A stretch of 64,000 nucleotides of DNA, taken from contig CAIXAE010000023.1 in the NCBI GenBank assembly GCA_903917345.1, positions 1 through 64,000 of the forward strand, given 5' to 3'. Numbering within the stretch: position 1 is the first letter of the stretch; each line of letters begins with the position of its first letter. Under the pieces are notes generated by a model that saw nothing but the letters and a program-made list of their open reading frames with translations, searched no databases and was not told the DNA's origin. A program made the translations under genes and the position numbers. Origin of the DNA: an uncultured Methylococcaceae bacterium. GTDB lineage: Bacteria > Pseudomonadota > Gammaproteobacteria > Methylococcales > Methylomonadaceae. Of the stretch, positions 4,610-40,302 are shown in pieces.

Positions 4610-4635
4610 TTAATAAGCAAGTCTTGGCTGTAATA

Positions 4636-4691
4636 ACTATCTCCTAGCTGTCTCACCCCTTTTCAAGGTGAGGCAGCATAGAGAAGATAGT
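4636..4691 (+). promoter_or_regulatory. Extended hairpin in the pmoC-pmoA intergenic region
   Basis: ACTATCTCcTAGCTGTCTCACC ... GGTGAGGCAGCATAGAGAAGATAGT; nested inverted repeat without a T tract. Confidence 0.7.
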
Positions 4692-4731
4692 CATTAATAA
4701 AAATAATTTAAATCCTTTAGGAGGTAAGCTA

Positions 4732-5475
4732 ATGAGCGCATCTCAATCAGCTGTACGTTCACGCGCAGAAGCAGTTAAAGTTTCACGCACGTTCGATTGG
4801 CTAATTTTGTTTACATTGTTCTTCGTTGTACTTGGTGGTTATCACATTCACTACATGTTAACTGGTGGTGACTGGGATTTCTGGACTGACTGGAAAGATC
4901 GTCGTCTATGGGTAACTGTAGCTCCAATCGTTTCAATCACCTTCCCTGCTGCTGTTCAAGCTTGCTTGTGGTGGCGTTACCGTTTGCCATTTGGCGCTGT
5001 AGTTTGTATTTTAGGTCTTCTTTTAGGTGAGTGGATCAACAGATACTTAAACTTCTGGGGCTGGACTTATTTCCCAGTAAACTTCTGCTTCCCTTCAAAC
5101 TTATTCCCAGGTGCTATCGTACTTGATGCAGTATTGTTATTGACTGGTAGTATGACTGTTACTGCAGTTTTAGGTGGAATGGCTTATGGTTTATTATTCT
5201 ACCCAGGAAACTGGCCAATCATTGCTCCATTACACGTACCTGTTGAATACAATGGTATGGTAATGACTCTTGCTGATTTACAAGGTTACCACTACGTAAG
5301 AACTGGTACTCCTGAGTACATCAGAATGGTTGAAAAAGGTACATTAAGAACTTTCGGTAAAGACGTTGCTCCAGTATCAGCGTTCTTCTCTGCTTTCGTG
5401 AGTATCTTAATTTATTTCTTATGGCACTTCTTTGGTCAATGGTTCGCGTCAACTAAATTCGTTGAAGCAGCTTAA
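4732..5475 (+). CDS. pmoA: Particulate methane monooxygenase subunit A
   Basis: 247 aa; GGDWDFWTDWKDRRLWVTVAPI and NFWGWTYFPVNFCFPSNLFPGA are PmoA signatures. Confidence 0.98.
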   Translation: MSASQSAVRSRAEAVKVSRTFDWLILFTLFFVVLGGYHIHYMLTGGDWDFWTDWKDRRLWVTVAPIVSITFPAAVQACLWWRYRLPFGAVVCILGLLLGEWINRYLNFWGWTYFPVNFCFPSNLFPGAIVLDAVLLLTGSMTVTAVLGGMAYGLLFYPGNWPIIAPLHVPVEYNGMVMTLADLQGYHYVRTGTPEYIRMVEKGTLRTFGKDVAPVSAFFSAFVSILIYFLWHFFGQWFASTKFVEAA

Positions 5476-5580
5476 GACTCAAGTCTTAGTTGTATAGAAA
5501 AATAAAAAAGACTGGCGGCGATATTGTGTTGTCGTTAGATACTCAAAAAACAATAGATTCTCTATTATAGAGGAGGATAT

Positions 5581-6825
5581 ATGAATATATTAAAAGACAA
5601 AGTTGCTAAATTATCCTTTGTCGCACTGCTGATTACTTTAACAGCAGCGATGTTTTACACACCAACTGCTTCTGCACATGGTGAAAAGTCGCAAGCCGCT
5701 TTCATGCGTATGCGTACTATTCACTGGTTTGACCTGAACTGGTCAAAAGAAGAAGTTGCTGTTAACGATACAATGACAATTTCAGGTAAATTCTTCGTGT
5801 TTTCTGGCTGGCCGGAAACTGTTGATAAACCAGAAATTTCATTCTTAAACATTGGTATCCCAGGCCCTGTATTTATTCGTGCAGGATCTTGGATCGGTGG
5901 TCAATTAGTTCCACGTTCAGTATCTTTGGAATTAGGCGAAACTTATGAATTCAAAGTATTGTTAAAAGCTCGTCGTCCAGGTGACTGGCACGTTCACACA
6001 ATGTTGAACGTAAAAGGCGGTGGTCCAATCATCGGTCCTGGTAAATGGGTAACTGTTACTGGTTCTATGGGCTCTTTCGTTAACCCAATCACTACTTTGA
6101 CTGGCGAAACTTTAGACTTAGAAACTTATAACTTAAGCAACACTTACTTCTGGCATGCATTATGGTACGGTTTAGGCCTACTATGGGTAGCATACTGGGC
6201 ACGTAAACCATTGTTTATCCCACGTTCTATTGCTGTTGAAGCGGGTAAAGGTGATTCATTAATCACTCCACTAGACAAAAAAGTAACTTTGGGTTTTGCA
6301 GTTGGTACTATTTTGATTGTTGCAGTTTCTATGAGCAGCACAAACGAAAAATATCCAATTACTGTGCCTTTACAAGCTGGTTTGTTACGTGGTATCAAAT
6401 CTTTAGAATTACCTGCACCAACTGTTGCAGTTAAAATTGAAGATGCTACTTACCGTGTACCAGGTCGTGCTATGCAAATGACTATGACAATCACTAACAA
6501 TGGTGACTCACCTGTTCGTTTAGGTGAATTCAACACTGCTGGTGTTCGTTTCATGGATGCTGCTGTAGCTCAAGACGAAACTGGTTATCCAGATGACTTG
6601 TTGGCTGAAGAAGGTTTGACTTCAAGTGATAACAGTCCAATCGCACCGGGCCAATCAAAAACTATTCAAGTTACTGCATCTGATGCTGCTTGGGAAGTTT
6701 ACCGTTTAGCTGATTTGATTTACGATCCAGATAGCCGTTTTGCTGGTTTGTTATTCTTCTTTGATGCTGCTGGAAACCGTCAAATGGTAACAATTGACGC
6801 TCCATTAATTCCAACTTTCATCTAA
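5581..6825 (+). CDS. pmoB: Particulate methane monooxygenase subunit B
   Basis: 414 aa; signal peptide ending ...SAHGEKSQ; HWFDLNW; GDWHVHTMLNVKGGGPIIGPG. Confidence 0.97.
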   Translation: MNILKDKVAKLSFVALLITLTAAMFYTPTASAHGEKSQAAFMRMRTIHWFDLNWSKEEVAVNDTMTISGKFFVFSGWPETVDKPEISFLNIGIPGPVFIRAGSWIGGQLVPRSVSLELGETYEFKVLLKARRPGDWHVHTMLNVKGGGPIIGPGKWVTVTGSMGSFVNPITTLTGETLDLETYNLSNTYFWHALWYGLGLLWVAYWARKPLFIPRSIAVEAGKGDSLITPLDKKVTLGFAVGTILIVAVSMSSTNEKYPITVPLQAGLLRGIKSLELPAPTVAVKIEDATYRVPGRAMQMTMTITNNGDSPVRLGEFNTAGVRFMDAAVAQDETGYPDDLLAEEGLTSSDNSPIAPGQSKTIQVTASDAAWEVYRLADLIYDPDSRFAGLLFFFDAAGNRQMVTIDAPLIPTFI

Positions 6826-6869
6826 TGATTGTTAATTGACAATTTGATTGTCAATTAAGGAATTGAAAA

Positions 6870-6902
6870 ACCCTCGTTGCTTCGGTAACGAGGGTTTTTT
6901 TT
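6870..6902 (+). terminator. Rho-independent terminator of pmoCAB
   Basis: ACCCTCGTTGC-TTCG-GTAACGAGGGT stem with UUCG tetraloop, then a T run. Confidence 0.9.
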
Positions 6903-7064
6903 TGACTTAAATATACGTTTATGTTTGTAGCATAAGCAATAAGTTGTTGCGTTCTTAAACGAAAACGTACAAATATAGTGATAAGATAGTCTGTAACATA
7001 TTGAGTTGTATTAATAAACCACACAATGAGTGAGTAGTTGTAACTATTCAATTCAGGAGTAATA

Positions 7065-8231
7065 ATGAATATTCATGAATATCAGGCAAAGCAGTTATTC
7101 CAACAATATAAAATACCCGTTCCGCAAGGTAGACACGCAGAATCTGCAGATTCTGCAAAACAAATGGCACAAGAATTAGGAGGCAACGGCTGGGTTGTTA
7201 AAGCGCAGGTTCATGCGGGTGGGCGTGGTAAAGTCGGTGGTGTTAAAGTTGCAAAAAGTTTAACTGAGGTCGCAGAGATTAGTGAGAGTTTACTGGGCCA
7301 ACGCTTAGTGACCATTCAAACAGGCCACTTAGGCTTGCCGATTAATTCTTTATTAATCGAAAGTTTATATCCTATAAAACGTGAACTTTATTTAAGTATC
7401 TTAATGGATCGCAGTATAGAGCGAATTATTTTTATCGCCTCGGTTGCTGGCGGTATGAATATAGAAGCTGTTGCTCATGATACCCCAGAACAAATCATCT
7501 CCGTACCCATTCATCCTGCATCTGGATTGCAAGGCTTTCAGTGTCGTAAAGTGGCCTATAACTTAGGTCTTAAAGGTCCGCAAGTTAAAGCCCTTACCCA
7601 GATTATGCAAGGAATGTACGATCTGTTTTTAGAAAAAGATGCGACTCAAATAGAAATTAATCCTTTGATTGAAACAGACTCAGGCGACTTATTAGCCTTA
7701 GATGCTAAGATTAATTTTGATGATAATGCTTTAGCATTGCATGCTGATATTTCGGAAATGAAAGACCCTAGTCAAGAAGATGATAAAGAAAATTATGCGC
7801 AACAATACGGGCTCAACTACATTACCTTAGAAGGTAATATTGGCTGTATGGTTAACGGTGCTGGGTTAGCGATGGCGACTATGGATTTAGTCAAATTAAA
7901 AGGCGGACAACCGGCTAACTTTTTAGATGTAGGTGGTGGCACCAATGTTGAAAAAGTCTGCGAGGCTTTTAAATTAATTTTGTCAGATAAAAGTGTAAAA
8001 GCGGTTTTGGTAAATATTTTTGGTGGCATAGTGCAATGTGATGTTATTGCTGCCGGTATCTTAGCGGCCATAGAACAGATTCATGTTAGTGTGCCTGTGG
8101 TGGTGAGATTAGAAGGTACCAATGTGGAAGTGGGCAGAGCTTTATTAACCAATACGGGTTTAAGTATTTATCCTGCGGATGATTTAACACACGCCGCAGA
8201 ACAAGCAGTAGCATTAGCGGAGGCAGTATGA
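7065..8231 (+). CDS. sucC: Succinate-CoA (or malate-CoA) ligase beta subunit
   Basis: [14 protein letters not shown]-grasp [55 protein letters not shown]. Confidence 0.88.
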
Positions 8232-9094
8232 GTATTTTAATTAATAAAGATACTAAAGTTATATGCCAAGGCTTTACAGGTAAACAAGGTACCTTTCATT
8301 CAGAACAAACACTCGCTTATGGCACTCAATTAGTGGGTGGCGTTACACCCGAGCGTGGCGGTTCGGTGCATTTAGGCTTGCCTGTTTTTAATACCGTAGA
8401 TGACGCTGTTAAAACCACTGGCGCCACTGCCAGTGTTATTTATGTCCCGCCTTTTTATGCGGCAGATGCCATACTTGAAGCAGTTGATGCGGGTATTAAA
8501 TTAATAGTCTGTATCACCGAAGGTATTCCAGTTTTACAAATGCTTAAAGTTAAAGCCGCTATGGCGGGGACTGATGCCTTATTAATAGGCCCAAATTGCC
8601 CGGGTATTATCACGCCGGGTGAATGTAAGATTGGTATTATGCCGGGTAAAATTCATTTGCCGGGTTCTATTGGTATCGTCTCTCGATCCGGAACTTTAAC
8701 TTATGAGTCTGTGCATCAAACAACTCAACAAGGTTTAGGTCAAAGTACTTGTGTTGGCATCGGTGGTGATCCGATTCACGGGATGAATTTTATAGATGTG
8801 CTAAGCCGATTCCAAGCTGATGACGCTACAAAAGGTATTGTTATGGTGGGTGAGATTGGTGGTATTGAAGAAGAAGATGCCGCAGATTATATTAAAGCCC
8901 ATGTAACTAAACCCGTAGTCTCTTATATTGCCGGTCAAACGGCTCCAGCAGGTAAAAGAATGGGGCACGCCGGTGCTATTGTTACAGGTGGTAAAGGCAC
9001 TGCTAAAGGAAAAATTGCGGCATTAAAAGCAGCGGGTATTGAAGTGTGCACCTCGCCTTCTGATATTGGTGCAGCAATGAAGGCTTGTTTTTAA
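8228..9094 (+). CDS. sucD: Succinate-CoA (or malate-CoA) ligase alpha subunit
   Basis: [52 protein letters not shown]; overlaps sucC. Confidence 0.9.
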
Positions 9095-9224
9095 AAATTT
9101 TATATATCTACATGTACACATAGATGTCTACGCCTACCCACTTAGACTGTGTCCCAACTTAAGTTGATAGCCGATGTGTACATGCGAAGAGATTCATCAA
9201 AATAGATAATAAAGTTTAAGGTAT

Positions 9225-10202
9225 TTAAGCGTCCATCTGGGTCTTTAAATACGCTAATACTTGCGGTACTAAATCTACTTGCCCCGTTTCAAATTGCTTT
9301 GCATCCGTTTCTCTGCGTAACCAAGTAAACTGACGTTTTGCTAATTGTCGTGTAGCAATAATAGCTTTTTCAGTCATCGTCTCTAAATCATCCTCACCTT
9401 GAAGATAAGACCAGGCTTGCCGATAACCTACCGCTCTAATAGAGGTCATCTTTTCATTTAAGTCGCCTCGCTCATAAAGCTTTTTAACCTCTTCCATAAA
9501 ACCTTGTTCAAGCATTAGATGAAAGCGATGGGCGATAATATCATGCAAAACTTTTCGGTCAGCAGGTGCGATAATCAATTTGATAACTTGATACGGTAGA
9601 ACATCGGCCTCATCTTGTACAAAGAAATCAGATAAGGCTCTGCCGCTAATTTCATAAACTTCCAAAGCCCGTTGCACGCGTTGTGGGTCATTAGGATGAA
9701 TTCTGGCGGCGGCAAGCGGATCAACTGCGGCGAGTCTATTATGAAGAGATGCTTTGCCAAAGTTTTCTAATTCTAAATCTAACTGCGCTCTAATGTCAGG
9801 ATTGGCTGGAGGTAATACGGCTAGGCCATTGAGTAAGGCATTGAAATACAACATGGTACCGCCAACTAAAATGGGTAATTTGCCGCGTTGCGTAATATCT
9901 GCCATTAAAGCCAGTGTTTGGCTTCTAAACTGGCCAGTTGAATAGGATTCAGACGCATCAATAATGTCGATAAGATGATGCGGAATGCCGCCTCGTTGAG
10001 CTAGCGTCGGCTTTGCCGTGCCAATATCCATGCCTCTGTATACCAACGCAGAATCGACACTGATAATTTCTCCATTCAGCATTTGAGCTAAGTTAACCGC
10101 AAGAGCTGATTTACCGGAAGCGGTGGGGCCCATTAATATAATAACTGGCGGTAATGAACATGTCGGAGCGGAAGACAAAGTAAAGTGTGAAGAAGTAGCC
10201 AT
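9225..10202 (-). CDS. miaA: tRNA dimethylallyltransferase
   Basis: LMGPTASGKSALA; ISVDSALVYRGMDIGTAKP; GRPTMLY-like GGTMLYFNALLNGL; RAVGYRQAWSYL. Confidence 0.96.
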   Translation of the reverse strand: MATSSHFTLSSAPTCSLPPVIILMGPTASGKSALAVNLAQMLNGEIISVDSALVYRGMDIGTAKPTLAQRGGIPHHLIDIIDASESYSTGQFRSQTLALMADITQRGKLPILVGGTMLYFNALLNGLAVLPPANPDIRAQLDLELENFGKASLHNRLAAVDPLAAARIHPNDPQRVQRALEVYEISGRALSDFFVQDEADVLPYQVIKLIIAPADRKVLHDIIAHRFHLMLEQGFMEEVKKLYERGDLNEKMTSIRAVGYRQAWSYLQGEDDLETMTEKAIIATRQLAKRQFTWLRRETDAKQFETGQVDLVPQVLAYLKTQMDA

Positions 10203-10219
10203 GTAAAAGTTATTTTCTG

Positions 10220-12037
10220 TTACTGCCCACGCAGAAAGAATTTATCTAAATCTTGAGTTGATAATTCAATCCAAGTGGGTCTGCCATGATTGCATTGGCC
10301 GATGCGTTCGGTTTGTTCCATATCCCGCAATAAGGCATTCATTTCATCAATACTCAAACGCCGATGTGCACGTATCGAACCATGACAAGCCATAGACGCT
10401 AAAATAGAGTTAGTATGTTCTTCAATGCGTTGACTGACACCATTAACCGCTAAATCAGCCAATACATCTCTCACTAACTGTTCTTTATCCACATTGCGTA
10501 ACAAAGCGGGTGATGCGCGGAGTATTAAGGCTTCAGGGCCAGAACGCGTAATCTCAAAACCAAGTTGCGTAAAAAACGCTTGTTCTTGCTCCGCTAAATC
10601 AGCTTCTGCTGCCGTTACATTGAGTTTAATAGGTAACAATAATGGCTGACTAGGGATAGCCCCTTCAGCATGTTGCTGCTTTAAGCGCTCATAAGTGACG
10701 CGTTCATGTGCCGCATGCGTATCCACTAAAATAATGCCAGTCGCTGTTTCCGCTAAGATATAAATATTGTGTAAATGCGCAATGGCGTAGCCCAATGGCG
10801 GGGTAACAGGTGCAGGATCAGGTGTTAAATCTTCGGTTGAGTAGGCCGGCGTTTCTTGATACAACTTTGCATAGGCTTTAATCGATTCACCAACAGAATA
10901 GGGTAATGAACTTTGCTGTGCCGGTCTTGGATTATAAGATGACTGTCTATTTAAACTCCCTCCCATACTAAACGAAGTCTGAGAGCTAGGCTCATATTCC
11001 AAAGTTTCTGCTTCTAAAACAGTAACCGTTTGCCCCGGTCTTACATCAGCTAGAGACCGATGCAATGCAGAGAATAAAAAATCATGCACTAAGCGTCCTT
11101 CTCTAAAGCGCACTTCTGTTTTAGCAGGATGCGCATTAACATCCACTAAAGTGGGATCTAACGTTAGATATAAAACAAAGACCGGATGTCTGCCATGGTA
11201 CAGCACATCTTGATACGCTTGCTTAACCGCATGGGACACTAACTTATCTTTAACAAGTCTGCCATTTACGTAAAAGAATTGCATGTCTTGTTGGCTACGC
11301 GAAAAGGTCGGTAAGCCTACCCAACCACTCAGTTGCAAGCCAGAGGCAGAATAATCGATAGTCACTGAATTTTTAATAAACTCGGGCCCGCAAATGTCTG
11401 CGACTCGCTGTTCTTGGGCAGATGCTTCGTGGGCTTGTCTTAGGTTTAAGACTTCTTTTTGATTATGCGTTAACACAAAACTGATATCAAAACGACTTAA
11501 AGCCATGCGCTTGATGAGTGTCTCAATATGGGCAAATTCGGTTTTTTCGGCTTTTAAAAACTTGCGTCTAGCCGGGGTGTTATAAAACAAATCTTGCACA
11601 TCCACTGTGGTACCTAAGGGATGCGGATCGGGTTGTGGGTCAAAGTTTTTTTCAGTACCATCGGCACATACAGACCAAGCGCATTCTGCATCAGCCGTGC
11701 GGGATATTAACGTCAGTCTGGCTACAGAACTGATACTAGGCAAAGCCTCGCCTCTAAACCCCATGCTAGCCACTTGTTCTAAATCTTGCAAACTAGCAAT
11801 CTTGCTGGTGGCATGTCTTGATAAAGCTAAAGGTAAATCTTCTTTATCAATGCCGCAACCATCATCCCTAATTTTAATTAATCGGGCTCCACCTTGTTCA
11901 ATATCAATAATAATTTGTTGTGCGCCGGCATCAAAACAGTTTTCGACTAATTCTTTAACCACAGAGGAAGGTCGTTCTACTACCTCGCCCGCGGCAATTT
12001 GGTTAACTAATTGAATAGGAAGTGAATGGATGCGCAT
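10220..12037 (-). CDS. mutL: DNA mismatch repair protein MutL
   Basis: IAAGEVVERPSSVVKELVENCFDAGA; DDGCGI; GFRGEALPSI; CNHGRPTWIEL. Confidence 0.97.
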   Translation of the reverse strand: MRIHSLPIQLVNQIAAGEVVERPSSVVKELVENCFDAGAQQIIIDIEQGGARLIKIRDDGCGIDKEDLPLALSRHATSKIASLQDLEQVASMGFRGEALPSISSVARLTLISRTADAECAWSVCADGTEKNFDPQPDPHPLGTTVDVQDLFYNTPARRKFLKAEKTEFAHIETLIKRMALSRFDISFVLTHNQKEVLNLRQAHEASAQEQRVADICGPEFIKNSVTIDYSASGLQLSGWVGLPTFSRSQQDMQFFYVNGRLVKDKLVSHAVKQAYQDVLYHGRHPVFVLYLTLDPTLVDVNAHPAKTEVRFREGRLVHDFLFSALHRSLADVRPGQTVTVLEAETLEYEPSSQTSFSMGGSLNRQSSYNPRPAQQSSLPYSVGESIKAYAKLYQETPAYSTEDLTPDPAPVTPPLGYAIAHLHNIYILAETATGIILVDTHAAHERVTYERLKQQHAEGAIPSQPLLLPIKLNVTAAEADLAEQEQAFFTQLGFEITRSGPEALILRASPALLRNVDKEQLVRDVLADLAVNGVSQRIEEHTNSILASMACHGSIRAHRRLSIDEMNALLRDMEQTERIGQCNHGRPTWIELSTQDLDKFFLRGQ

Positions 12038-28279: not shown

Positions 28280-29539
28280 ATGACTGAGATAACTGAAGTA
28301 CCGAGTCCTTTTTGCGGTATTGGCACGGATGATTTAACCATTAAGGTCGATGGTGTATTGCTGAAAGTAATTGAAAATGGATGTGCGGTGAATACCCCTG
28401 CTTTTGAACAACCGATTACCGATACTCATGCCCGGGTATCCGGCCAAGAAGTGAGTCTAGAAGTCGCTGTGGCTAAAGCGGCTGAATTATTAAAAGATAC
28501 TAAGTTACCGCTCATTGGTGGTTGCGCGACCGATGTTAATGGTATGCGTGGCTTGTTGGCTTTGGCCGATAAAGCCGGTGCGGTGATCGATAATATGAAT
28601 TTTACCGGTGCCCGTAATAACTTTTTAGCCTTGCAAGATTCTGGTTGGATGAATACCACCTTAGCGGAAGTTAAAAATCGTTGTGATTTGTTATTAGTCG
28701 TTGGTACTGATGTAGAGGCTTTTGCCCCCCGTTTCTTTGAGCGTTATTTATGGAACAAAGAATCTATGTTCCTTGATGATACGTCCTCGCGTGAGGTGAT
28801 TTATTTAGGCAGAGCACCTTCAGGAACTGCGTCTACTTCACCTACCGGTAAAGCCGCGCAAGTGTTACCTTGTGCTATAGAGGATTTACCAGAAGTGATC
28901 GCTGTTTTAAGAGCCTTGGTAAAAAAACAACCGATCCGCGTGACGTCAGTGGCCGGTATTGCCGTAGCAGATTTACAAGCCATTGCGGATAAATTATTAG
29001 CGGCTACTTATGGGGTAGTAACTTGGGGTGCGGGTGCTCTAGCGTTTAGACAAGCGGAGTTAACGGTGCAAACTTTGTCAGAAATGATTAAAGATATAAA
29101 TAATCAAAATACCCGATGTTCTGGTTTACCCTTAGCCGGTAAAGAAGGCGATCAAACAGCGAATCAGGTGTGTGGTTGGACAACAGGTTATCCGGCACGT
29201 ACTCGATTCTCAAGTGGTTATCCAGAGTACGATCCCTTCCTAAATGAAACTAAAGTTTTGTTAGAAAATGGCGAAGTGGATGCTTTAGTTTGGGTGCAAG
29301 CGTTTAATGTGAATGCGGTGCCTCCTGAAACATCTTTACCTACGATTGTGGTGGGGCGTTCTGGCATGACGTTTACTAAAGAACCCGATGTTTTTATTCC
29401 TGTGGGTACTCCGGGGATTGATCATGCGGGTCATGCGTATCGTATGGATAACGTGGTTGCGATTCGATTAAAAAAGCTCAGAGATTCTGGATTACCCAGT
29501 ACGGCAGAAGTACTTAATGCCATTGAACACGCTTTGTAG
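28280..29539 (+). CDS. fhcB: Formyltransferase/hydrolase complex, FhcB (formylmethanofuran dehydrogenase subunit B-like)
   Basis: CGIGTDDLTIKV; LPLIGGCATDVNGMRGLLALADKAGAV; operon context B-A-D-C. Confidence 0.9.
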   Translation: MTEITEVPSPFCGIGTDDLTIKVDGVLLKVIENGCAVNTPAFEQPITDTHARVSGQEVSLEVAVAKAAELLKDTKLPLIGGCATDVNGMRGLLALADKAGAVIDNMNFTGARNNFLALQDSGWMNTTLAEVKNRCDLLLVVGTDVEAFAPRFFERYLWNKESMFLDDTSSREVIYLGRAPSGTASTSPTGKAAQVLPCAIEDLPEVIAVLRALVKKQPIRVTSVAGIAVADLQAIADKLLAATYGVVTWGAGALAFRQAELTVQTLSEMIKDINNQNTRCSGLPLAGKEGDQTANQVCGWTTGYPARTRFSSGYPEYDPFLNETKVLLENGEVDALVWVQAFNVNAVPPETSLPTIVVGRSGMTFTKEPDVFIPVGTPGIDHAGHAYRMDNVVAIRLKKLRDSGLPSTAEVLNAIEHAL

Positions 29540-29547
29540 GAAAGATA

Positions 29548-31212
29548 ATGTTGATAAAATTAACGGGTGGAATTGTCTATGATCCTGCATCTGGGATTGA
29601 TGGCCAGCAGCAAGATATTTATATAAGAGACGGTCGTATTATCGCAAAGCCAGCGGATGCGGTAGTTGATAAAGAATATGATTTAAAAGGTAAAGTGGTC
29701 ATGTCGGGTGCTATCGATATGCACACGCATATTGGTGGCGGTAAAGGAAATATTGCTAGAACCTTATTGCCAGAAGATCATCGTCAAGATCCTGTACATC
29801 GTAGTGATATTACGCGTTCGGGTTGTGGACACGCGATGCCAAGTACGTTTGTAACGGGTTATCGTTATGCCGAGATGGGTTATACCGCAGGTTTTGAACC
29901 GGCTGTTTTACCTAATAATGCCCGTCAAGCACACATGGAAATGGGGGATATTCCCATTCTAGATAAAGGCGGTTATGTCATGTTGGGCAGTGATGATTAT
30001 TTACTGCGTATGCTTACCGCTAAAAAAGATCAAAAGGCCATTAATGATTATGTTGCTTGGACTATGACAAGTGCCAAAGCGATTGGGGTTAAGGTGGTTA
30101 ATCCTGGTGGTATTAATGCGTTTAAATTTAATCAACGAAAATTAGATTTAGATGAGCAAAATAGTCATTATGGTGTAACCCCTCGTGAAATATTACGCGT
30201 TTTAGCAACGGCTGTTAAAGAGATTGGTGTATCACATCCTTTACATGTACATGGTTGTAATCTGGGTGTGCCGGGTAATGTGCAAACGACGCTTGATACC
30301 ATTCAAGGTATTGGGGGTTTGCCGATGCATTTAACCCATATCCAGTTCCATAGTTATGGTACAGAAGGGGATTTTAAATTCTCTTCCGGTGCGGCACAGA
30401 TAGCAGAAGCCATCAATAGAAACAAAAATATCACTATTGATGTGGGCCAAATTTTGTTTGGTCAAACCGTGACTGCGTCTGGCGATAACATGCGTCAACA
30501 TGCGAATCATAAATTTGCCAGCCCTAATAAATGGGTGACAATGGATATTGAGTGTGATGCGGGTTGTGGTGTGGTGCCTTTCAAATATAAAGATCAAAAC
30601 TTTGTTAATGCTTTGCAGTGGGCCATTGGTTTAGAAACTTTCTTATTGGTTGATGACCCATGGCGTATTTTCTTAACCACTGATCATCCTAATGGCGCGC
30701 CATTTACCAGCTATCCGCATTTAATTCGTTTGTTAATGGATAGAAGTTTTAGAAATGATGTGTTGGCAACGATTCATCCAGAAGCGCAAAAGATGACTAC
30801 TTTAGCGTCTATTGAGCGTGAATATACTTTGCAAGAAATTGCGATTATGACGCGTGCAGGTGCTGCTAAATTGATTGGCTTAAAAGATCGTGGTGGTTTA
30901 AGTGCGGGCAATTGGGCAGATATTACTGTTTATACGGATAATGTTGATCGTCAAAAAATGTTCGAAAAACCAGATTATGTATTTAAAGATGGTCAGTTAG
31001 TGGTGGTTGATGGCAAAGTGGTCTCTACTAAGTGGGGCACTACGCATGTCGTTAAACCTCAGTTTGATGCATCGGTAGAAAAAGGTTTAAAAGATTATTT
31101 TGATCGTTATCTGACTATGAAATTGGGTAACTTTAGAATTAGCGATGATGAGATCACTGAAGATGGGCGTGGAAGTATTTCCGTACATCCATTGCAAGGA
31201 GATGTAGCATGA
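29548..31212 (+). CDS. fhcA: Formyltransferase/hydrolase complex, FhcA (amidohydrolase family)
   Basis: GAIDMHTHIGGGKGNIARTLLPEDHR; HVHGCNLGVPGN; FLTTDHPNGAPFTSYP. Confidence 0.93.
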   Translation: MLIKLTGGIVYDPASGIDGQQQDIYIRDGRIIAKPADAVVDKEYDLKGKVVMSGAIDMHTHIGGGKGNIARTLLPEDHRQDPVHRSDITRSGCGHAMPSTFVTGYRYAEMGYTAGFEPAVLPNNARQAHMEMGDIPILDKGGYVMLGSDDYLLRMLTAKKDQKAINDYVAWTMTSAKAIGVKVVNPGGINAFKFNQRKLDLDEQNSHYGVTPREILRVLATAVKEIGVSHPLHVHGCNLGVPGNVQTTLDTIQGIGGLPMHLTHIQFHSYGTEGDFKFSSGAAQIAEAINRNKNITIDVGQILFGQTVTASGDNMRQHANHKFASPNKWVTMDIECDAGCGVVPFKYKDQNFVNALQWAIGLETFLLVDDPWRIFLTTDHPNGAPFTSYPHLIRLLMDRSFRNDVLATIHPEAQKMTTLASIEREYTLQEIAIMTRAGAAKLIGLKDRGGLSAGNWADITVYTDNVDRQKMFEKPDYVFKDGQLVVVDGKVVSTKWGTTHVVKPQFDASVEKGLKDYFDRYLTMKLGNFRISDDEITEDGRGSISVHPLQGDVA

Positions 31213-32105
31213 TTATTAACGGTGTCAGCATAGATGCAACGTTCGCTGAAGCGTTCCCTATGAAAGCAACGCGCGCTATTATTACTGCGCAAAATGAAAA
31301 ATGGGCGATGATTTCTGCTCAAGCCATGACTGGCTTTGCTACCTCTGTTATTGCCTGCGGTTGTGAAGGAGCTATTGAACGCGTATTAGATCCCTCAGAA
31401 ACACCTGATGGTCGTCCTGGTGTAGCGATTATGATCTTTGCCATGGGCGGCAAGGGTTTGGCAAAACAATTAGAAACTAGGGCGGGGCAGTGTGTATTAA
31501 CATCACCCACTTCTGCATTATTTTCAGGTATTGATGGCGGCATTAGAATTCCTTTAGGAAAGAATCTGCGTTATTTCGGTGATGGCTTTCAAGTCTCTAA
31601 ACAAATCAGTGGTAAACGTTATTGGCGTATCCCTGTCATGGATGGTGAATTTTTAGCCGAAGCAACCACTGGTCAAGTCGATGCAATTGGGGGGGGTAAC
31701 TTTTTAGTGTTAGCGGAATCTCAACCGCAAGCTTTGGCAGCCTGTGAAGCCGCGATTGAAGAAATGCGTAAAATTCCGAATGTGATTATGCCATTTCCTG
31801 GTGGTGTAGTGCGCTCAGGCTCTAAAGTGGGTTCTAAGTACAAATCATTGGGAGCCTCTACTAATGATGCATTTTGCCCAACCTTAAAAGGGATGACTAA
31901 GACAGATTTATCACCAGAAATTGAATCAGTGATGGAAATTGTTATTGATGGTTTAACCAAAGAAGATATTGATAAAGCGATGAAAGTCGGTATTCAAGCG
32001 GTTTGTGATTTGGGCGCGGCTAATGGTATTAAACGTATTAGTGCGGGTAATTACGGCGGTAAATTAGGCCCATTCCACTTTCATTTACAGGAGATTATGG
32101 CATGA
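31209..32105 (+). CDS. fhcD: Formylmethanofuran:tetrahydromethanopterin formyltransferase, FhcD
   Basis: DATFAEAFPMKATRAIITAQNEKWA; Ftr-type length and motifs; overlaps fhcA and fhcC. Confidence 0.94.
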   Translation: MIINGVSIDATFAEAFPMKATRAIITAQNEKWAMISAQAMTGFATSVIACGCEGAIERVLDPSETPDGRPGVAIMIFAMGGKGLAKQLETRAGQCVLTSPTSALFSGIDGGIRIPLGKNLRYFGDGFQVSKQISGKRYWRIPVMDGEFLAEATTGQVDAIGGGNFLVLAESQPQALAACEAAIEEMRKIPNVIMPFPGGVVRSGSKVGSKYKSLGASTNDAFCPTLKGMTKTDLSPEIESVMEIVIDGLTKEDIDKAMKVGIQAVCDLGAANGIKRISAGNYGGKLGPFHFHLQEIMA

Positions 32106-32914
32106 GTGCTTTAACCTTTACATTAAAGTATAAATCGGCTCAGCGCGTGGATATGTCGCCTTTGGTTTGTCAGCACTTGTCTGGCATGTCGATTACTGAA
32201 ATAAGTGCACTTACTTTGCAAAGTGGCAAATTGAAATTGCGGGTGGATGAGTTATTTACAATTTCAGGCTCTGACGCACAAGAAATCGTTATTAATAACA
32301 GTGTGGATAATCTTGATTTTATAGGCAAAGATTTGGATGGGGGAAGTATTACCGTTAATGGCGATGCCGGTGCTTATTTAGCCTTTGGCTTGAAGTCTGG
32401 AGAGATTAAAGTGTCTGGTAATGCGGGACTTTATGCGGCTTGTGAAATGAAGAAAGGCTATTTAGAAATCGCTGGTAATGCCGGAGATTTTTTAGGTGCA
32501 GCCTTGCCAGGTAATAAAATGGGTATGAAAGGTGGCACTATTTTAGTGAAAGGTAATGTTGGTGAGCGAGCAGGGGATCATATGCGTCGCGGTAATATCT
32601 TAATTGAAGGTAATGCGGGTGATTATTGTGGCTCAAGGATGACTGCAGGTACTATTGCAGTGATGGGCCAAACGGGTCGTTATTTAGGTTATGCGATGCG
32701 TCGTGGTACTTTACTGTTATGGAATCAACCTAAACTATCCGCCAGTTTTAATGATTGTGGTGCACATACGTTAGCGTTTTTACCTATTTTATTTGGATCG
32801 TTTAAAACCTTAAACTCTCGATTTGCTGATGCTTCTGAGGCTTTTAATCGTGTACAAAGGTATGCGGGTGATATGTCTGAAATGGGGCGTGGTGAGGTTT
32901 TAGTTAAATTATAA
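32102..32914 (+). CDS. fhcC: Formyltransferase/hydrolase complex, FhcC
   Basis: GltB C-terminal-like beta helix (GDAGAYLAFGLKSGEIKVSGNAG, VKGNVGERAGDHMRRGNILIEGNAGDYCGSRM). Confidence 0.92.
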   Translation: MSALTFTLKYKSAQRVDMSPLVCQHLSGMSITEISALTLQSGKLKLRVDELFTISGSDAQEIVINNSVDNLDFIGKDLDGGSITVNGDAGAYLAFGLKSGEIKVSGNAGLYAACEMKKGYLEIAGNAGDFLGAALPGNKMGMKGGTILVKGNVGERAGDHMRRGNILIEGNAGDYCGSRMTAGTIAVMGQTGRYLGYAMRRGTLLLWNQPKLSASFNDCGAHTLAFLPILFGSFKTLNSRFADASEAFNRVQRYAGDMSEMGRGEVLVKL

Positions 32915-33069: not shown

Positions 33070-34149
33070 TTATAAAGTATTAACAGCGTTTAATTCTTTG
33101 AATGCTTGTTCTAAACGAACAACCATTCCAACTTCACCTTCACGTTGCCAAACGCGTGGATCGTAGAATTTTTTGTTTGGTTTATCATCGCCTTCTGGGT
33201 TACCGATTTGACCTTGTAAATAACCTTCATTTTTCTTGTAATAGTTCATGATACCTTCCCAAGTTGCCCATTGAGTATCAGTATCGATGTTCATTTTTAC
33301 AACACCGTAGCTAATTGATTCTTCAATTTCAGCAGCTGTTGAACCTGAACCGCCGTGGAATACGAAGTTTAATGTATTAGCAGGAACACCATACTTTTCA
33401 GACACATACTTTTGTGAGTTGTCTAAAATAGTTGGCGTTAATTTAACATTACCTGGTTTATAAACACCGTGTACGTTACCGAAAGATGCTGCGATAGTAA
33501 AGTTAGGGCTAATTTTGCTTAATTCTTCATAAGCATAAGCCACATCTTCTGGTTGAGTGTAAAGCAATGAGTGATCTAAGTTACTGTTATCAACACCATC
33601 TTCTTCACCACCGGTTACACCTAATTCAATTTCTAGTGTCATGCCCATTTTAGACATGCGCGCTAAATATTGACCACAAATTTCGATGTTTTCTTTTAGA
33701 CTTTCTTCAGACAAATCTAACATGTGTGAGCTGAACAATGGTTTGCCAGTTTCTGCGAAGTGTTTTTCACCTGCATCTAATAAACCGTCAATCCATGGTA
33801 ATAATTTTTTAGCTGCGTGGTCAGTATGTAAAATAACTGGTACGCCATAAGCTTCAGCGATTAGGTGTACGTGTTTAGCACCTGATATAGCACCTAAGAT
33901 TGCTGCTTGTTGACCTTCAGCTTTTAGGCCTTTACCAGCAACAAATGCTGCGCCACCATTTGAAAATTGAACAAACACAGCTGATTTAACTTTAGCAGCT
34001 GCTTCTAAAACAGCATTGATTGAATCAGTGTTAATTACGTTTACAGCAGGTAATGCAAATTTATTGGCTTTGCATATTTCGAATACTTTTTGTACATCTG
34101 CACCAGTAACAACACCTGGTTTTACTACGTCTAATATTTTTTGTGACAT
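33070..34149 (-). CDS. fba: Class II fructose-bisphosphate aldolase
   Basis: FALPAVNVINTDSINAVLEAA; HTDHAAKKLLPWIDGLLD; NFVFHGGSGST. Confidence 0.95.
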   Translation of the reverse strand: MSQKILDVVKPGVVTGADVQKVFEICKANKFALPAVNVINTDSINAVLEAAAKVKSAVFVQFSNGGAAFVAGKGLKAEGQQAAILGAISGAKHVHLIAEAYGVPVILHTDHAAKKLLPWIDGLLDAGEKHFAETGKPLFSSHMLDLSEESLKENIEICGQYLARMSKMGMTLEIELGVTGGEEDGVDNSNLDHSLLYTQPEDVAYAYEELSKISPNFTIAASFGNVHGVYKPGNVKLTPTILDNSQKYVSEKYGVPANTLNFVFHGGSGSTAAEIEESISYGVVKMNIDTDTQWATWEGIMNYYKKNEGYLQGQIGNPEGDDKPNKKFYDPRVWQREGEVGMVVRLEQAFKELNAVNTL

Positions 34150-34198
34150 GTTGAGTCCTATTGATGGTTATAGCTGTTAAAAGAAAATTAAAGCAATA

Positions 34199-34227
34199 AA
34201 AAAGGTGGTTATGAAATCATAACCACC
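34199..34227 (-). terminator. Terminator between tal and fba
   Basis: On the minus strand: GGTGGTTATGATTTCATAACCACC stem followed by TTTTT. Confidence 0.75.
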
Positions 34228-34245
34228 ATTATTGATTGCTTAAGA

Positions 34246-35232
34246 TTAGCCTTCTAAGCTAGCTAAACGATTTGCAAGTAATTCTTCTAGTGCTTCTAAA
34301 GCTGTTGCGAAGCCGCTGATGCCTTCTGCCAATTTGTCAGTAGCCATACGGTTTGCAGCGTGCATGCTTTCAAATGTTGCTTTATCAATTGATAGTTTTT
34401 CAATAGATAAACTTGCAGCGTTTTCTGGATCCAATTTACGTGGTAATTCACCTTCAGTCGCTTGTAGTTCTGCTAATAAAGAAGGAGCAATGGTTAATAA
34501 GTCGCTACCCGCTAGTTCAGTGATTTCACCTACGTTACGGAAGCTTGCGCCCATAACTTCAGTTTTGTAACCGAATTTTTTGTAGTAGTTATAGATTTCA
34601 GTAACAGAAACAACACCTGGATCTTCAGCAGGAGCATAAGATTCTTTACCAGTATCTTTTTTGTACCAGTCAAGAATACGACCTACGAAAGGTGAGATCA
34701 ATGTGATGCCGTTTTCAGCACATGCAACCGCTTGGTGTAAGCCAAACAATAAAGTTAAGTTAGTGTGAATGCCTTCTTTTTCTAATACTGCAGCCGCTTG
34801 AATCCCTTCCCAAGTTGCAGCAATTTTGATTAAGATACGGTCACGTGATACGTTAGCTGCTTCGTATTGAGCAATTAAATCACGACCTTTGGCTATAGTA
34901 GCATCAGTGTCGAACGATAGGCGCGCATCAACTTCAGTTGAAACACGACCAGGAATGATTTCAAGAATTTTTAGACCGAAAGAAACAGCTAGACGATCAA
35001 AGGCTAAGGTAACAACTTCTGCAGCAGATGCAGCTGCACCTAAAGTTTCACGCGCAGCTTTTAAAGTATCATCAACGATACCTTGGTATTGTGGCATTTG
35101 AGCAGCAGCAGTAATCAAAGATGGATTAGTTGTCGCATCACGTGGAGTAAAAGTTTCAATCGCCTGAATGTCGCCAGTATCAGCAACAACCACTGTTACT
35201 TCTTTTAATTGTTCTAGTAAGTTTTTTCCCAT
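34246..35232 (-). CDS. tal: Transaldolase
   Basis: [52 protein letters not shown]. Confidence 0.95.
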
Positions 35233-35342
35233 GAGAGGTACCTATTTAAGTTGAAATTAAAAAATTATTTAACGGTTATACGTAATGGTATAAGCAATGT
35301 TGAGTTAGGCGGGTGTTGTTGTTTTTATGAGCCTAAATTAGA

Positions 35343-35380
35343 GAGAAATAGGCCTTAATTTTAATTAATGCCTATTTCTC
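35343..35380 (-). promoter_or_regulatory. Hairpin between the 11-copy repeat-motif gene and tal
   Basis: GAGAAATAGGC-N16-GCCTATTTCTC, 11-bp stem, no T tract. Confidence 0.6.
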
Positions 35381-35388
35381 AGAGGTTT

Positions 35389-36183
35389 TTAAGCTTGAAG
35401 ACGCATGTATTTTTCAACACTTGTTTCAATTACAGCAGGTTGTTTTCGTTCATTTAATGCTTGTCTAGCCATATACTTAGCAACGTTACTAAGCTGTGGC
35501 TGCTTAGCTTGTTCATCTAAATATTTAGCGACACCTGTTAAAGCAACTTCTGGAATTACTAATTTAGCAGCCAAAGCGGATATTGCTTCTTGTTTAGCCA
35601 TATATCTAGCAACTCTACTAGGCTGTGGCAAACTTTCTTGAATTTCAAGATACTTAGCAACGCCAGATAAACTAGGTTTAACTGTTTTAGGTGTTAAAGC
35701 AGATATTGCCGCTTGTTTAGCTAGATATTTAGCAACATTACTGGGTTGGGGTTGATTTGCTTGCGCTTTTAAATATTTGGCAACACCTGATAACTCAGGT
35801 GTTGGTTTCAATGTTTTTAAATATTTTTCAACGCCAGTCGCTTCAGGAATACCCAATAGCTGATTTTTTTGTTTCTCTGCAATGTTCTGTCTTAAAACAT
35901 ATTTACTAACTCCACTTGTTGGAGCTTTGTCTAGGCCTTCTAAATATTTCTCTACACCACTTAGTGGTTGCAACGTTTGATCAGATTCTGATATTTCAGT
36001 TAACAATAAAGCATTTTGATGATCTAAATATTTTGCTACCCCTGTTTTCCCTGATTCATCAGCAGTATAAACAGGATAGTTTGCTTCAGTTTTATAAATG
36101 TTCTCAGATTTGGACTGATTCAAGAAAAAGAACAAGCCTGCTATAGCAGGGAAAAAAAAACCATTTGAGTTTTCCTTGTTCAT
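35389..36183 (-). CDS. Repeat-motif protein with 11 copies of [TS]-x-V-x-[KR]-Y-[LVM] and an N-terminal hydrophobic segment (novel family candidate)
   Basis: GVAKYLDHQ, GVEKYLEGL, GVSKYVLRQ, GVEKYLKTL, GVAKYLKAQ, NVAKYLAKQ, GVAKYLEIQ, RVARYMAKQ, GVAKYLDEQ, NVAKYMARQ, SVEKYMRLQ. MNKE start chosen because it abuts the upstream stop (TAAAATG). Confidence 0.85.
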   Translation of the reverse strand: MNKENSNGFFFPAIAGLFFFLNQSKSENIYKTEANYPVYTADESGKTGVAKYLDHQNALLLTEISESDQTLQPLSGVEKYLEGLDKAPTSGVSKYVLRQNIAEKQKNQLLGIPEATGVEKYLKTLKPTPELSGVAKYLKAQANQPQPSNVAKYLAKQAAISALTPKTVKPSLSGVAKYLEIQESLPQPSRVARYMAKQEAISALAAKLVIPEVALTGVAKYLDEQAKQPQLSNVAKYMARQALNERKQPAVIETSVEKYMRLQA

Positions 36184-36184
36184 T

Positions 36185-36889
36185 TTAGCCTCTATCGCGC
36201 ACGTATTTATCAACACCAGTTACCGCTTTTGCAGAACTTTGTTGTGGTTGATTTGCTACATATTTATCAACACCGGTAAGTTTAGTAGATTCACTTACTT
36301 TTTCTTGGGTGTTAATGTATCTAGAAACACCTGTTCCAGTGATCTTATGCAAATATTTAGCAACACCTGTGTTTACAGCGTAAGATTTAGTTGTATTAGC
36401 AGTCCCACTATTTTGTGTTTTAGCAGAACTTGATTTTTTAACTAAAAAGAAACCAGCTAATCCAAGACCTAATAAACCCAATATATAAGTTGTCATAGTG
36501 GAGCTTTCTTCTTTTGTAGCTGATGCTGCCGGCGTATCTACTTCAATTACACTAGTACTTGATTGGACTTTAACAGGCGATGGTTTTAGAGCTGCTGCTG
36601 ATGGTTTGTAGTTTGTATCGTGATACAAGACTTCAGGTTTAAAATCAGCTGCAGGATATTTTGAATCAGCTTCTGTACTAGCGCTTGCTGAAACTTTAGC
36701 TACAGGCGCGGTTGCTTTAGCAGGAGCATTTTTTGGTGCTTCTTTAGCTATGTAATCACTGTTTTGGTATAAAACTTCTGGTTGGAAGTCTGCAGCAGGG
36801 TACTGTTGGTCTGCACATACAACGGTACTTGATAATAGTAATACCGCTAATGAACCTTTGGTTAAATTATTCTTTTTCACGTTGCTCAC
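36185..36889 (-). CDS. Signal-peptide and TM protein with 4 GVxKY(L/I/V) motifs and two YPAADFxPEVLY repeats (novel family candidate)
   Basis: N-terminal SLAVLLLSSTVVCADQQ; QYPAADFQPEVLYQNSDY and KYPAADFKPEVLYHDTNY; TM TTYILGLLGLGLAGFFLVKK; then TGVAKYLHKI, TGVSRYINTQ, TGVDKYVANQ, TGVDKYVRDRG. Confidence 0.85.
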   Translation of the reverse strand: MSNVKKNNLTKGSLAVLLLSSTVVCADQQYPAADFQPEVLYQNSDYIAKEAPKNAPAKATAPVAKVSASASTEADSKYPAADFKPEVLYHDTNYKPSAAALKPSPVKVQSSTSVIEVDTPAASATKEESSTMTTYILGLLGLGLAGFFLVKKSSSAKTQNSGTANTTKSYAVNTGVAKYLHKITGTGVSRYINTQEKVSESTKLTGVDKYVANQPQQSSAKAVTGVDKYVRDRG

Positions 36890-36990
36890 CTAAAAGTCGT
36901 AAGAAGTGGTTTGATATTCCCTCATTATTGTTTTTTATAAAATAACGAGGCAATATCTCTCCAAATTTAATGTGTATAACTACTCTATAT

Positions 36991-38985
36991 TTAAAGTACT
37001 GCTTCTACGTGCTTAATTACATTTTCAACGGTGAAGCCAAATTCTTTGAAAAGTAATCCAGCAGGTGCAGATTCGCCAAATCGATCAAGTCCTACAACTT
37101 TACCGTTGGTGCCCACATATTTCCACCATAGATCAGTAACACCCGCTTCAACAGCTACGCGTTTTGTAACAGCAGAAGGAAGAACAGATTCACGATATGC
37201 AACATCTTGTGCATCGAAAATGTTAGTCGATGGCATAGAAACTACACGTATATTTTTACCAGCCGCTCTTAACTCATCAGCTGCTTTTAAAGCAAGTTCA
37301 ACTTCAGAGCCTGTCGCAATAATTATTGCATCTGGTTGGCCTTCGCTATCACTTAATACATAGCCACCACGTGAGATATTAGCAATTTGTGCATCAGTAC
37401 GTGGAACATGTGGTAAGTTTTGACGAGAGAAGACCAAAATAGAAGGTCCATCTTGTCTTTCAAACGCTGTTTTCCAAGAAATAGTGGTTTCAACCGCATC
37501 ACATGGACGCCAAACTTGAATACCTGGAATTAGTCGTAATGTTGCTGTTTGTTCAATAGGTTGATGAGTTGGGCCATCTTCACCTAGACCGATAGAGTCA
37601 TGAGTGTAAACAAAGATAGATCTAATCTTCATCAAAGATGCCATACGTAATGCATTTCTAGCATATTCTGAGAACATTAAGAATGTTGCGCCGAATGGAA
37701 TTAATCCACCATGTAAAGCAACACCATTCATAATAGCAGACATACCAAATTCACGTACGCCGTAGTTGATGTAGTTAGCATCTGGCTTATCAGCTCGCAT
37801 AGGTCTGTAAGTTGACCATTCAGTCATGTTTGAACAGCCCAAATCAGCTGAACCACCAAAGATTTCAGGTAAAATTTTAGCAAAACCTTCAATAGCTGCT
37901 AATGAAGATAAACGAGTTGCAGTTGTTTTCTCTTCTGCAACAACTGATTTTACAAAGGTATCGGCTTTTTCTTTCCAATCACTCGGTAATTCACCTGCAA
38001 TACGACGTTGATATTCTGACGCTAATTCAGGATAAGCGGCTTGATAAGCTGCAAATTTTGCATTCCAAGTACTTTCTGCATGAGCGCCTTTTGCCTTTGC
38101 GTCCCAAGCTCCGTAAACGTCAGCAGGAATAACGAAAGCTTCATGATCCCAACCTAAAGCAGCTTTAGTTAAATCAATTTCATCTTGACCTAAGGCTGCA
38201 CCATGACATGCATGACTACCAGACTTATTTGGTGAGCCAAAACCAATAATAGTTTTGCAGCAGATTAAAGTAGGTTTATCCGATACTGATTTTGCTGACT
38301 TAATTGCATTTGAAATAGCCACAGGGTCGTGACCATCAACATCAGCAATTACATGCCAGCCATACGCTTCAAAGCGTAGTGGTGTATTGTCAGTAAACCA
38401 ACCTTCAACGTGACCGTCAATAGAAATTCCATTGTCGTCCCAGAAAGCGATTAATTTACCTAAACCCAAAGTACCTGCTAAGGAACATGCCTCATGTGAA
38501 ATACCTTCCATCAAACAACCATCGCCTAAAAACGCGTAGGTGTTATGATCGACAATTTCGTGTCCATCTCTGTTAAATTGACCTGCCAATGCTTTTTCTG
38601 CAATAGCCATACCTACAGCATTAGTGATGCCTTGACCTAAAGGACCTGTTGTTGTTTCAACACCTTCGGTGTAACCATATTCTGGATGACCCGGAGTTTT
38701 TGAGTGCAGTTGTCTGAATTTTTTAAGTTCTTCGATAGGTAGGTCATAACCAGCTAGGTGCAATAATGAATAGATCAACATAGATCCGTGACCATTAGAT
38801 AGCACGAAACGATCCCGATTAGACCATTTTGGATTTGTAGGATTGTGGCTTAAGAAATCATTCCACAAAACTTCGGCTATGTCAGCCATTCCCATTGGTG
38901 CACCTGGATGTCCAGAGTTTGCTTTTTGAACGGCATCCATGCTCAAAGCGCGTATGGCGTTCGCTAATTCTCGGCGCGAAGTCAT
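36991..38985 (-). CDS. tkt: Transketolase
   Basis: [60 protein letters not shown]. Confidence 0.97.
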
Positions 38986-39089
38986 ATTATTCTCCTTTAT
39001 TATTTTTATATATTATGTTTAGTGACTTCTATCAGCTTAAGCGATCTTGTCACGAAAATTCTTTAAATTGCTATTCTTATAATACAAAC

Positions 39090-39119
39090 AAGAACGAGTG
39101 GCATAAGCCACTCGTTCTT
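39090..39119. terminator. Terminator/hairpin downstream of hxlB
   Basis: AAGAACGAGTGGC-ATAA-GCCACTCGTTCTT, 13-bp perfect stem. Confidence 0.75.
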
Positions 39120-39125
39120 TTGTTT

Positions 39126-39659
39126 TTATTCTAAATTAGCGTGTCTTTCTCTCATTATTTCTTCAGGAATTCCTTTTTCATGAATAATATGAGAAATAGT
39201 AGCTTCCAAAAATAACAATGTTGATAGCTCAAATACCGTACCCATTGGCATGCCATATACTTTACCGTATTGATCACTTTTGCCAATTTGAAATACACCG
39301 TCAGCCATGTCACCTATTGTTGACTCGCCTTTAGCTGAAATCAGTACAATTTTGGCGCCTACTTTTTTTGCGCTTTTAGTGAATGCTATTAGTTGCTCTG
39401 TCTCTCCAGATCCAGAGATTATAATTAACAAATCACCATTTTTAATGCTTGGTGTAACAATTTCACCTACTACGCTGACATCATAGCCGCCGTGCACTAA
39501 TCTCATTGCAAAAAAATTACCGACTAATTTCGAACGACCTGCACCCGCAATATAAATGCGTTTTGCACCATCGAGTAATTCGGTCAGCTTTGCATCATAC
39601 GTATCATCTGTAGCTTCAAGAATACCTGAAATCTTGTCTATGATAAGTTGCTGATGCAT
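39126..39659 (-). CDS. hxlB: 6-phospho-3-hexuloisomerase
   Basis: SIS domain: IYIAGAGRSKLVGNFFAMRLVHGGYDVSVVGEIVTPSI...LLIIISGSGETEQL. Confidence 0.95.
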   Translation of the reverse strand: MHQQLIIDKISGILEATDDTYDAKLTELLDGAKRIYIAGAGRSKLVGNFFAMRLVHGGYDVSVVGEIVTPSIKNGDLLIIISGSGETEQLIAFTKSAKKVGAKIVLISAKGESTIGDMADGVFQIGKSDQYGKVYGMPMGTVFELSTLLFLEATISHIIHEKGIPEEIMRERHANLE

Positions 39660-39660
39660 A

Positions 39661-40302
39661 TTATACCGCGTCTACTAATTCACGAATTTCACGAGCTGCG
39701 TCAGCAGGAGAAGCAGCGCCATAGATTGCTGCGCCAACAACGATGATGTTTGCACCTGCTCTTACTACGTCTTGTACAGTTGATGGTTTAATGCCGCCAG
39801 CAACAGAAATACGTACTGGTAAACCTAAAGCAGCAATAGCATTTAAATCAGCAAATGGAGTGTGTCCTGCTGCTTGAGCGTCAAGACCTGTGTGGATGCC
39901 CATGATTTGAGCGCCAGCTTCAGCAGTTGCTCTTGCACAAGCTACTTTGTCTTCAACGTTAATTAAGTCAATTTGAGCTTCTGCGCCGTGTGCGTTAGCC
40001 GCTTTGATAACACCTTGGCAAGTTGCTAAACCAGATACGCCCAATACTGTAACGATATCTGCGCCAGCTGCGTAAAAAGGAGTTGCCTCGTACTCGCCAG
40101 CATCCATAGTTTTTAAGTCAACTAAAAGTAATTTTTCAGGGAATTTTGCTCTTAACTCTCTTACTAAGTTGATGCCGTTGTGTTTAATGCATGGAGTTCC
40201 AATTTCGAAAATATCAACATAAGGTGCTACTAAAGTAGCTAAGCCAACTGTTGCGTCGAAATCTAGTGAATCTAATGCCATTTGAATTAATGGTTTTGCC
40301 AT
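39661..40302 (-). CDS. hxlA: 3-hexulose-6-phosphate synthase
   Basis: IFEIGTPCIKHNGINLVRELR; LLVDLKTMDAGEYEA; VAGGIKPSTVQDVVRAGANIIVVGAAIYGA. Confidence 0.96.
   Translation of the reverse strand: MAKPLIQMALDSLDFDATVGLATLVAPYVDIFEIGTPCIKHNGINLVRELRAKFPEKLLLVDLKTMDAGEYEATPFYAAGADIVTVLGVSGLATCQGVIKAANAHGAEAQIDLINVEDKVACARATAEAGAQIMGIHTGLDAQAAGHTPFADLNAIAALGLPVRISVAGGIKPSTVQDVVRAGANIIVVGAAIYGAASPADAAREIRELVDAV

Follow-up and report, generated by a model that had tools for sequence, protein, structure and literature searches.

Two adjacent genes of the ribulose monophosphate (RuMP) operon, here called A and B, encode proteins in which several copies of one short motif are strung along low-complexity linkers rich in Pro, Ala and Gln. 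We propose A and B as candidate membrane-anchored multivalent scaffold proteins for the RuMP pathway, a reading that we place only slightly on the probable side. The two belong to a conserved motif family that is genomically linked to RuMP genes and co-occurs with 3-hexulose-6-phosphate synthase (HPS). How methanotrophs confine toxic formaldehyde while producing it in large amounts is a long-standing question. If A and B are indeed scaffolds, they would constitute a native, conserved and so far undescribed organiser of the RuMP pathway, and would make the containment of formaldehyde directly testable.

Operon context and architecture of A and B

The window, by which we mean the whole 64-kb stretch of DNA analysed here, holds pmoCAB (3857-6825), the fhc formaldehyde-oxidation cluster (28280-32914) and the RuMP operon (33070-40302). 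A sequence-only reading had delimited two open reading frames joined as TAAAATG within the minus-strand order hxlA-hxlB-tkt-A-B-tal-fba; both frames stand at the positions listed in Table 1, and the order is correct. B starts with ATG and A with GTG at 36889, a start supported by the homologues, which begin VNNVKKNN. The A-B pair is bracketed by hairpins, and many of the named loci described below are likewise strongly folded at both sites. Possibly, these hairpins are mRNA processing or stability elements that set the scaffold-to-enzyme ratio; no Rfam family was found at them. A search of a plasmid collection returned no match. For Methylococcus capsulatus, a CRISPRi screen is reported in which guides targeting two RuMP operons, MCA3040-45 and MCA3046-50, had negative fitness (PMC13108547); the part of it considered here speaks to the importance of the operons only and singles out no A gene.

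Table 1. Positions of the operon genes, hairpins and features of A and B in the window
Feature	Positions	Strand	Remarks
hxlA, 3-hexulose-6-phosphate synthase	39661..40302	-	TIGR03128 above cut-off; proposed main client
hxlB, 6-phospho-3-hexuloisomerase	39126..39659	-	operon context
tkt, transketolase	36991..38985	-	operon context
Hairpin, tkt/A gap	36913..36957	-	z ~ -2.8 vs shuffles
Gene A	36185..36889	-	234 aa; predicted signal peptide, two predicted periplasmic repeats, TM helix, four GVxKY motifs
A, signal peptide, residues 1-26, ends VVCA/DQ	36812..36889	-	predicted from hydropathy; conserved in all homologues
A, predicted periplasmic repeat 1, YPAADFQPEVLYQNSDYI	36749..36802	-	Y, P, F, P columns invariant across families
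A, predicted periplasmic repeat 2, YPAADFKPEVLYHDTNY	36608..36658	-	homologue comparison
A, TM helix MTTYILGLLGLGLAGFFLV, then KK	36440..36496	-	19 residues; hydropathy 1.92
A, tail, predicted cytoplasmic	36191..36370	-	motifs at residues 174, 186, 205, 224; motif scan
Gene B	35389..36183	-	264 aa; hydrophobic stretch at N-terminus, then eleven motifs
B, residues 8-21, GFFFPAIAGLFFFL	36121..36162	-	hydrophobic; possible membrane-associating segment
B, motif chain	35395..36045	-	T/S at 47, 75, 90, 116, 132, 148, 173, 189, 216, 232, 254
Hairpin, 18-bp inverted repeat, B/tal gap	35343..35380	-	z ~ -7 vs shuffles
tal, transaldolase	34246..35232	-	operon context
fba, fructose-bisphosphate aldolase	33070..34149	-	operon context

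With a strict pattern in which GV is required, A has 3 copies of the motif and B has 7; with the loose pattern [TS].V.[KR]Y[LVMI], the numbers rise to 4 and 11. The earlier counts of 4 and 11 are correct for a motif written as [TS]-G-V-x-[KR]-Y-[LMV]-x-x-Q. In 20,000 shuffles per protein, the loose pattern occurred on average 0.006 (A) and 0.003 (B) times and never more than once. In the organism's own genome, a DNA pattern of the motif gave clustered sites at the A and B ORFs only. Family-wide, we collected 1,376 instances across 182 non-redundant proteins, which yield the consensus [TS]-G-V-[AS]-[KR]-Y-[LM]-x-[KR]-Q; at the third residue N-terminal of the T/S, proline is enriched. The number of copies varies from 3 to 18 per protein.

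The simplest reading of the motif is that of a short helix capped by T/S at its N-terminus and presenting V, Y and L on the same side. In the AF2 model of B a helix begins one residue past the T/S at all eleven motifs (residues 48, 76, 91, 117, 133, 149, 174, 190, 217, 233 and 255), with a low confidence (pLDDT ~45-66). As input served B together with its natural in-frame extension into tal (mean pLDDT 48); in this chain, as in the HxlB-Tkt-A read-through of locus L185 (pLDDT 41), the enzymes themselves were badly modelled.

Protein A carries two copies of a YPAADFxPEVLY repeat, a Ser/Ala/Lys-rich stretch and a transmembrane (TM) helix that AF2 also modelled, at low confidence, in a homologous chain. 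By the usual topology rules, the repeats would be periplasmic and the motifs cytoplasmic. The basic residues that follow the TM helix recall PEP-CTERM and LPXTG sorting tails; however, the conserved motif tail of A extends ~80 residues past the helix and no PEP or LPXTG motif is present. Such an anchor was rejected, as the matches were weak, under the curated cut-off, and the TM helix is internal. Beyond its N-terminal stretch, B consists of motifs and linkers only. This hydrophobic N-terminus is present in most other genera and is weaker in family f3. In families f3 and f5, proteins of type B start with MAKNLL or MAKNLF, which resembles the transaldolase start MAKNLLEQL of these organisms (L022 1429-1863, L070 7442, window 35232). 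The sequence-only reading had given both proteins hydrophobic segments; this is accurate for A, with its signal peptide and single TM helix, and for B it comes down to the N-terminal stretch. Its broader view of multivalent motif chains joined to membrane anchors is confirmed from the sequences.

Neither A nor B matched anything above the curated cut-offs in Pfam-A and NCBIfam, and B had no match among PDB sequences, in agreement with the earlier reading, which recognised no described family for the motif. Matches to U1snRNP70_N, XopAD and DPC2 were discarded as below cut-off and due to low complexity. A search of the open-access literature on the motif, on RuMP scaffolds and on membrane-bound HPS returned no description of A/B proteins.

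Linkage to RuMP genes and distribution among genomes

Loci were gathered by similarity to B or A, with the exception of nine that were fetched around HPS genes. In 44 of 48 loci the motif ORF has a RuMP gene no further than 6 kb away, and hxlA is found in 42 of these 44, the remaining two being truncated at contig ends. Of the four unlinked loci, two hold proteins of a further kind (type C, see below), one lies at a contig end and includes masked bases, and one is that of the A gene in G034. A search with A alone returned 80 named loci, all titled Methylococcales or its genera, nearly all of which have the order hxlA-hxlB-tkt-A-B-tal(-fba); the rest are mostly truncated by contig ends.

Several variants of this order were seen. 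In several f4 genomes A lies directly upstream of hxlA-hxlB; among these is G063, whose cassette is duplicated and shows this arrangement twice. The cassettes of L091 and L092 are split into hxlA-hxlB-B and hxlA-hxlB-tkt-A-tal, and in L098 and L099 a repeated hxlA-hxlB-tkt-B adjoins hxlA-hxlB-tkt-A-tal-fba. L099 (G205) has the hxlA-hxlB-tkt cassette three times in tandem, with B after two of them and A-tal-fba after one. L094 and L095 read hxlA-tkt-A-B, without hxlB and tal, and L140 reads hxlA-M-hxlA-hxlB, where M is the motif gene. Finally, linkage extends beyond one lineage and one gene order, as family f10 (three genomes), which lies outside the order, has hxlA-M-tal-hxlA-hxlB. The only gene common to all these arrangements is hxlA, which leads us to propose HPS as the main client. 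As most loci come from one order, the linkage is partly inherited, and co-regulation alone could have maintained it.

Within the order, the B profile matched 219 of 274 genomes, and HPS (TIGR03128) was above cut-off in 235. In a sample of the class (369 genomes), HPS was above cut-off in six (G000, G205, G027, G279, G430 and G621); a B-profile match was obtained for five of them, the exception being G027, and for no genome among the remaining 363. In G027, an A-type gene lies immediately upstream of a fragmented-looking hxlA. As most genomes come from one order, these counts are not independent. Family f2 has neither HPS nor a B-profile match, and throughout the class sample and families f2, f7 and f8 the motif protein is present only with HPS. 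A prevalence of motif proteins in organisms lacking RuMP genes would have spoken against the sequence-only reading. Instead, their distribution follows that of the HPS genomes, with linkage to RuMP genes in nearly all cases. No motif protein was seen in the HPS-bearing family f6 nor in the f4 genomes G057, G070, G074, G077 and G080; a scaffold is thus not required for RuMP. One motif locus, L022, is assigned to an f6 genome (G040), and its ORFs are identical to those of L023 from f3 (G026); the 11-kb contig of G040 that holds it may be contamination.

Methane oxidation and RuMP can be told apart in several families. In family f10, two HPS genes and a motif protein are present and a match to PF02461 (pMMO/AMO) is missing; PF02461 proteins, in turn, occur in the f8 genomes and in G036 and G046 of f7, none of which has HPS above cut-off or the motif protein. 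The motif therefore follows RuMP and not methane oxidation, and a role for it in pMMO only is contradicted by these three families.

Protein A is modular, its predicted periplasmic repeats and TM helix being separable from the motif tail. Family f6 has both HPS and pMMO, and no motif gene lies beside its hxlAB; distant from hxlAB, an A-like protein retains the signal peptide, YPAxxFxPEVxYQ repeats and TM helix, and in place of the motif tail it ends in a basic tail preceded by an acidic linker. Similarly, the A-like protein of G032 (f2; pMMO, no HPS) has the repeats and TM helix without the motif tail. The A-like proteins of L271-L277 keep the YPAxxFxPEVxY repeats and TM helix, and their cytoplasmic tail is different and often basic. 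In several f6 genomes the ORF adjoining the A-like gene resembles mutS. The YPAADF module was seen in the pMMO-bearing families f1, f3, f4 and f6 and in G032, and not in f10. A link between this module and pMMO is suggestive only: the module occurs in the f5 genome G028, for which PF02461 gave no match, and is missing from f7 and f8, which do have PF02461 proteins. The intracytoplasmic membrane, proposed earlier as a possible site of action, fits A only; the motif protein also occurs in f10, with no pMMO match.

The motif also occurs outside RuMP loci. In L077 (G430:C10), the ORF 4745-10852 encodes a 2,035-aa ChpA/PilL-like chemotaxis kinase with several TGVxRYL-type motifs between its domains, and type C motif proteins (L070, L081, L127 and L147) are not beside RuMP genes. 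These occurrences suggest that the partner of the motif may be more general. Three type C proteins (L070 7442-8272, L081 7478-8374 and L147 1411-2187) have a C-terminal CxxxTxxGxxC...C/H domain that looks zinc-binding.

Proposed function and alternative readings

We infer the following mechanism. Each TGVAKYLxxQ helix would dock on a RuMP enzyme through its sticky V, Y, L face, most likely on the oligomeric HPS HxlA and perhaps on other RuMP enzymes. The many motifs, on flexible linkers, would cross-link enzyme oligomers into a cluster, which would be held at the cytoplasmic face of the membrane by the hydrophobic N-terminus of B and the TM helix of A. In methanotrophs, the periplasmic repeats of A would bind a separate partner on the formaldehyde-producing side. 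The formaldehyde-fixing enzymes would thereby be concentrated at the point of formaldehyde entry into the cytoplasm. The HPS of Methylococcus capsulatus was reportedly a particulate enzyme with a very high mass (Ferenci, Strom and Quayle, 1974), which we take as a lead and not as evidence. A comparison of HxlA and HxlB between motif-bearing and motif-free lineages gave 11 and 9 scattered positions, respectively, and no clear docking patch. We also put forward, tentatively and as a rather unlikely reading, that A is a transmembrane adaptor whose periplasmic repeats grip the methane/methanol oxidation machinery, its cytoplasmic motifs and B holding the HPS/RuMP cluster beneath. If true, formaldehyde would be captured on cell entry and type I methanotrophs would have a native two-sided metabolon.

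The signal peptide, periplasmic repeats and TM helix of A and the hydrophobic N-terminus of B would also suit proteins that organise the methanotroph membrane or the pMMO apparatus, by membrane shaping or by spacing of pMMO arrays, and that sit in the RuMP operon only from a shared need for high levels during growth on methane. The recurrence of the same periplasmic repeats in pMMO-bearing f6 and in G032, which lack the motif tail or HPS, points in this direction. However, the motif lies beside RuMP genes in f10, is absent from f7 and f8 despite their PF02461 proteins, and neither B nor the f10 proteins have a periplasmic part; we hold such a role to be unlikely. The kinase of G430 and the type C proteins raise another prospect, that of a general organiser, cytoplasmic or polar and based on protein or membrane, serving as one hub for these proteins and for the copies at RuMP loci, with RuMP enzymes not being direct clients. 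A general hub would not be expected to leave the HPS-less genomes of the class sample without a B-profile match, and the genomes that carry the type C and kinase copies also have RuMP, so that we find this distinctly improbable.

The tight operon linkage and the variable copy number would also accord with regulation in place of clustering, for which a docking helix would be equally fitting. The motif helices would then dock at an HPS/PHI or Tkt interface and tune oligomeric state or activity, for example by inhibition in a formaldehyde-dependent manner. We give this only a slim chance, as up to 18 copies on one chain, together with membrane anchors, are better suited to cross-linking and tethering, that is, to the scaffold that we favour.

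Comparison with known systems

In outline, A and B would resemble EPYC1 of the algal pyrenoid and CsoS2 of the alpha-carboxysome, and we claim membership in neither system. All are disordered chains with repeated short motifs in variable copy number, co-encoded or co-expressed with the carbon-fixing enzyme that they are presumed to gather. The motifs of EPYC1 and CsoS2 are helical, and that of A and B is predicted to be so by the low-confidence AF2 model. In contrast, the motif of A and B is a different one, the proteins are membrane-anchored, the pathway is RuMP and not Rubisco, and no shell genes were seen in the operon. Searches for CsoS2 or EPYC1 homology in A and B gave no match in Pfam-A or NCBIfam at E values up to 10, and none in the PDB for B.

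Formaldehyde fixation has been brought near the formaldehyde source by HPS-PHI fusion enzymes and by engineered Mdh-Hps-Phi complexes, and the performance of synthetic methylotrophy is limited by formaldehyde channelling (PMC8879981). If A and B are scaffolds, their motifs would offer ready-made tags for this purpose. No motif gene adjoins the natural HPS-PHI fusion genes that we examined (L262, L263 and L265). These fusions and complexes share their presumed purpose with A and B, and differ from them in being a covalent fusion or a synthetic complex.
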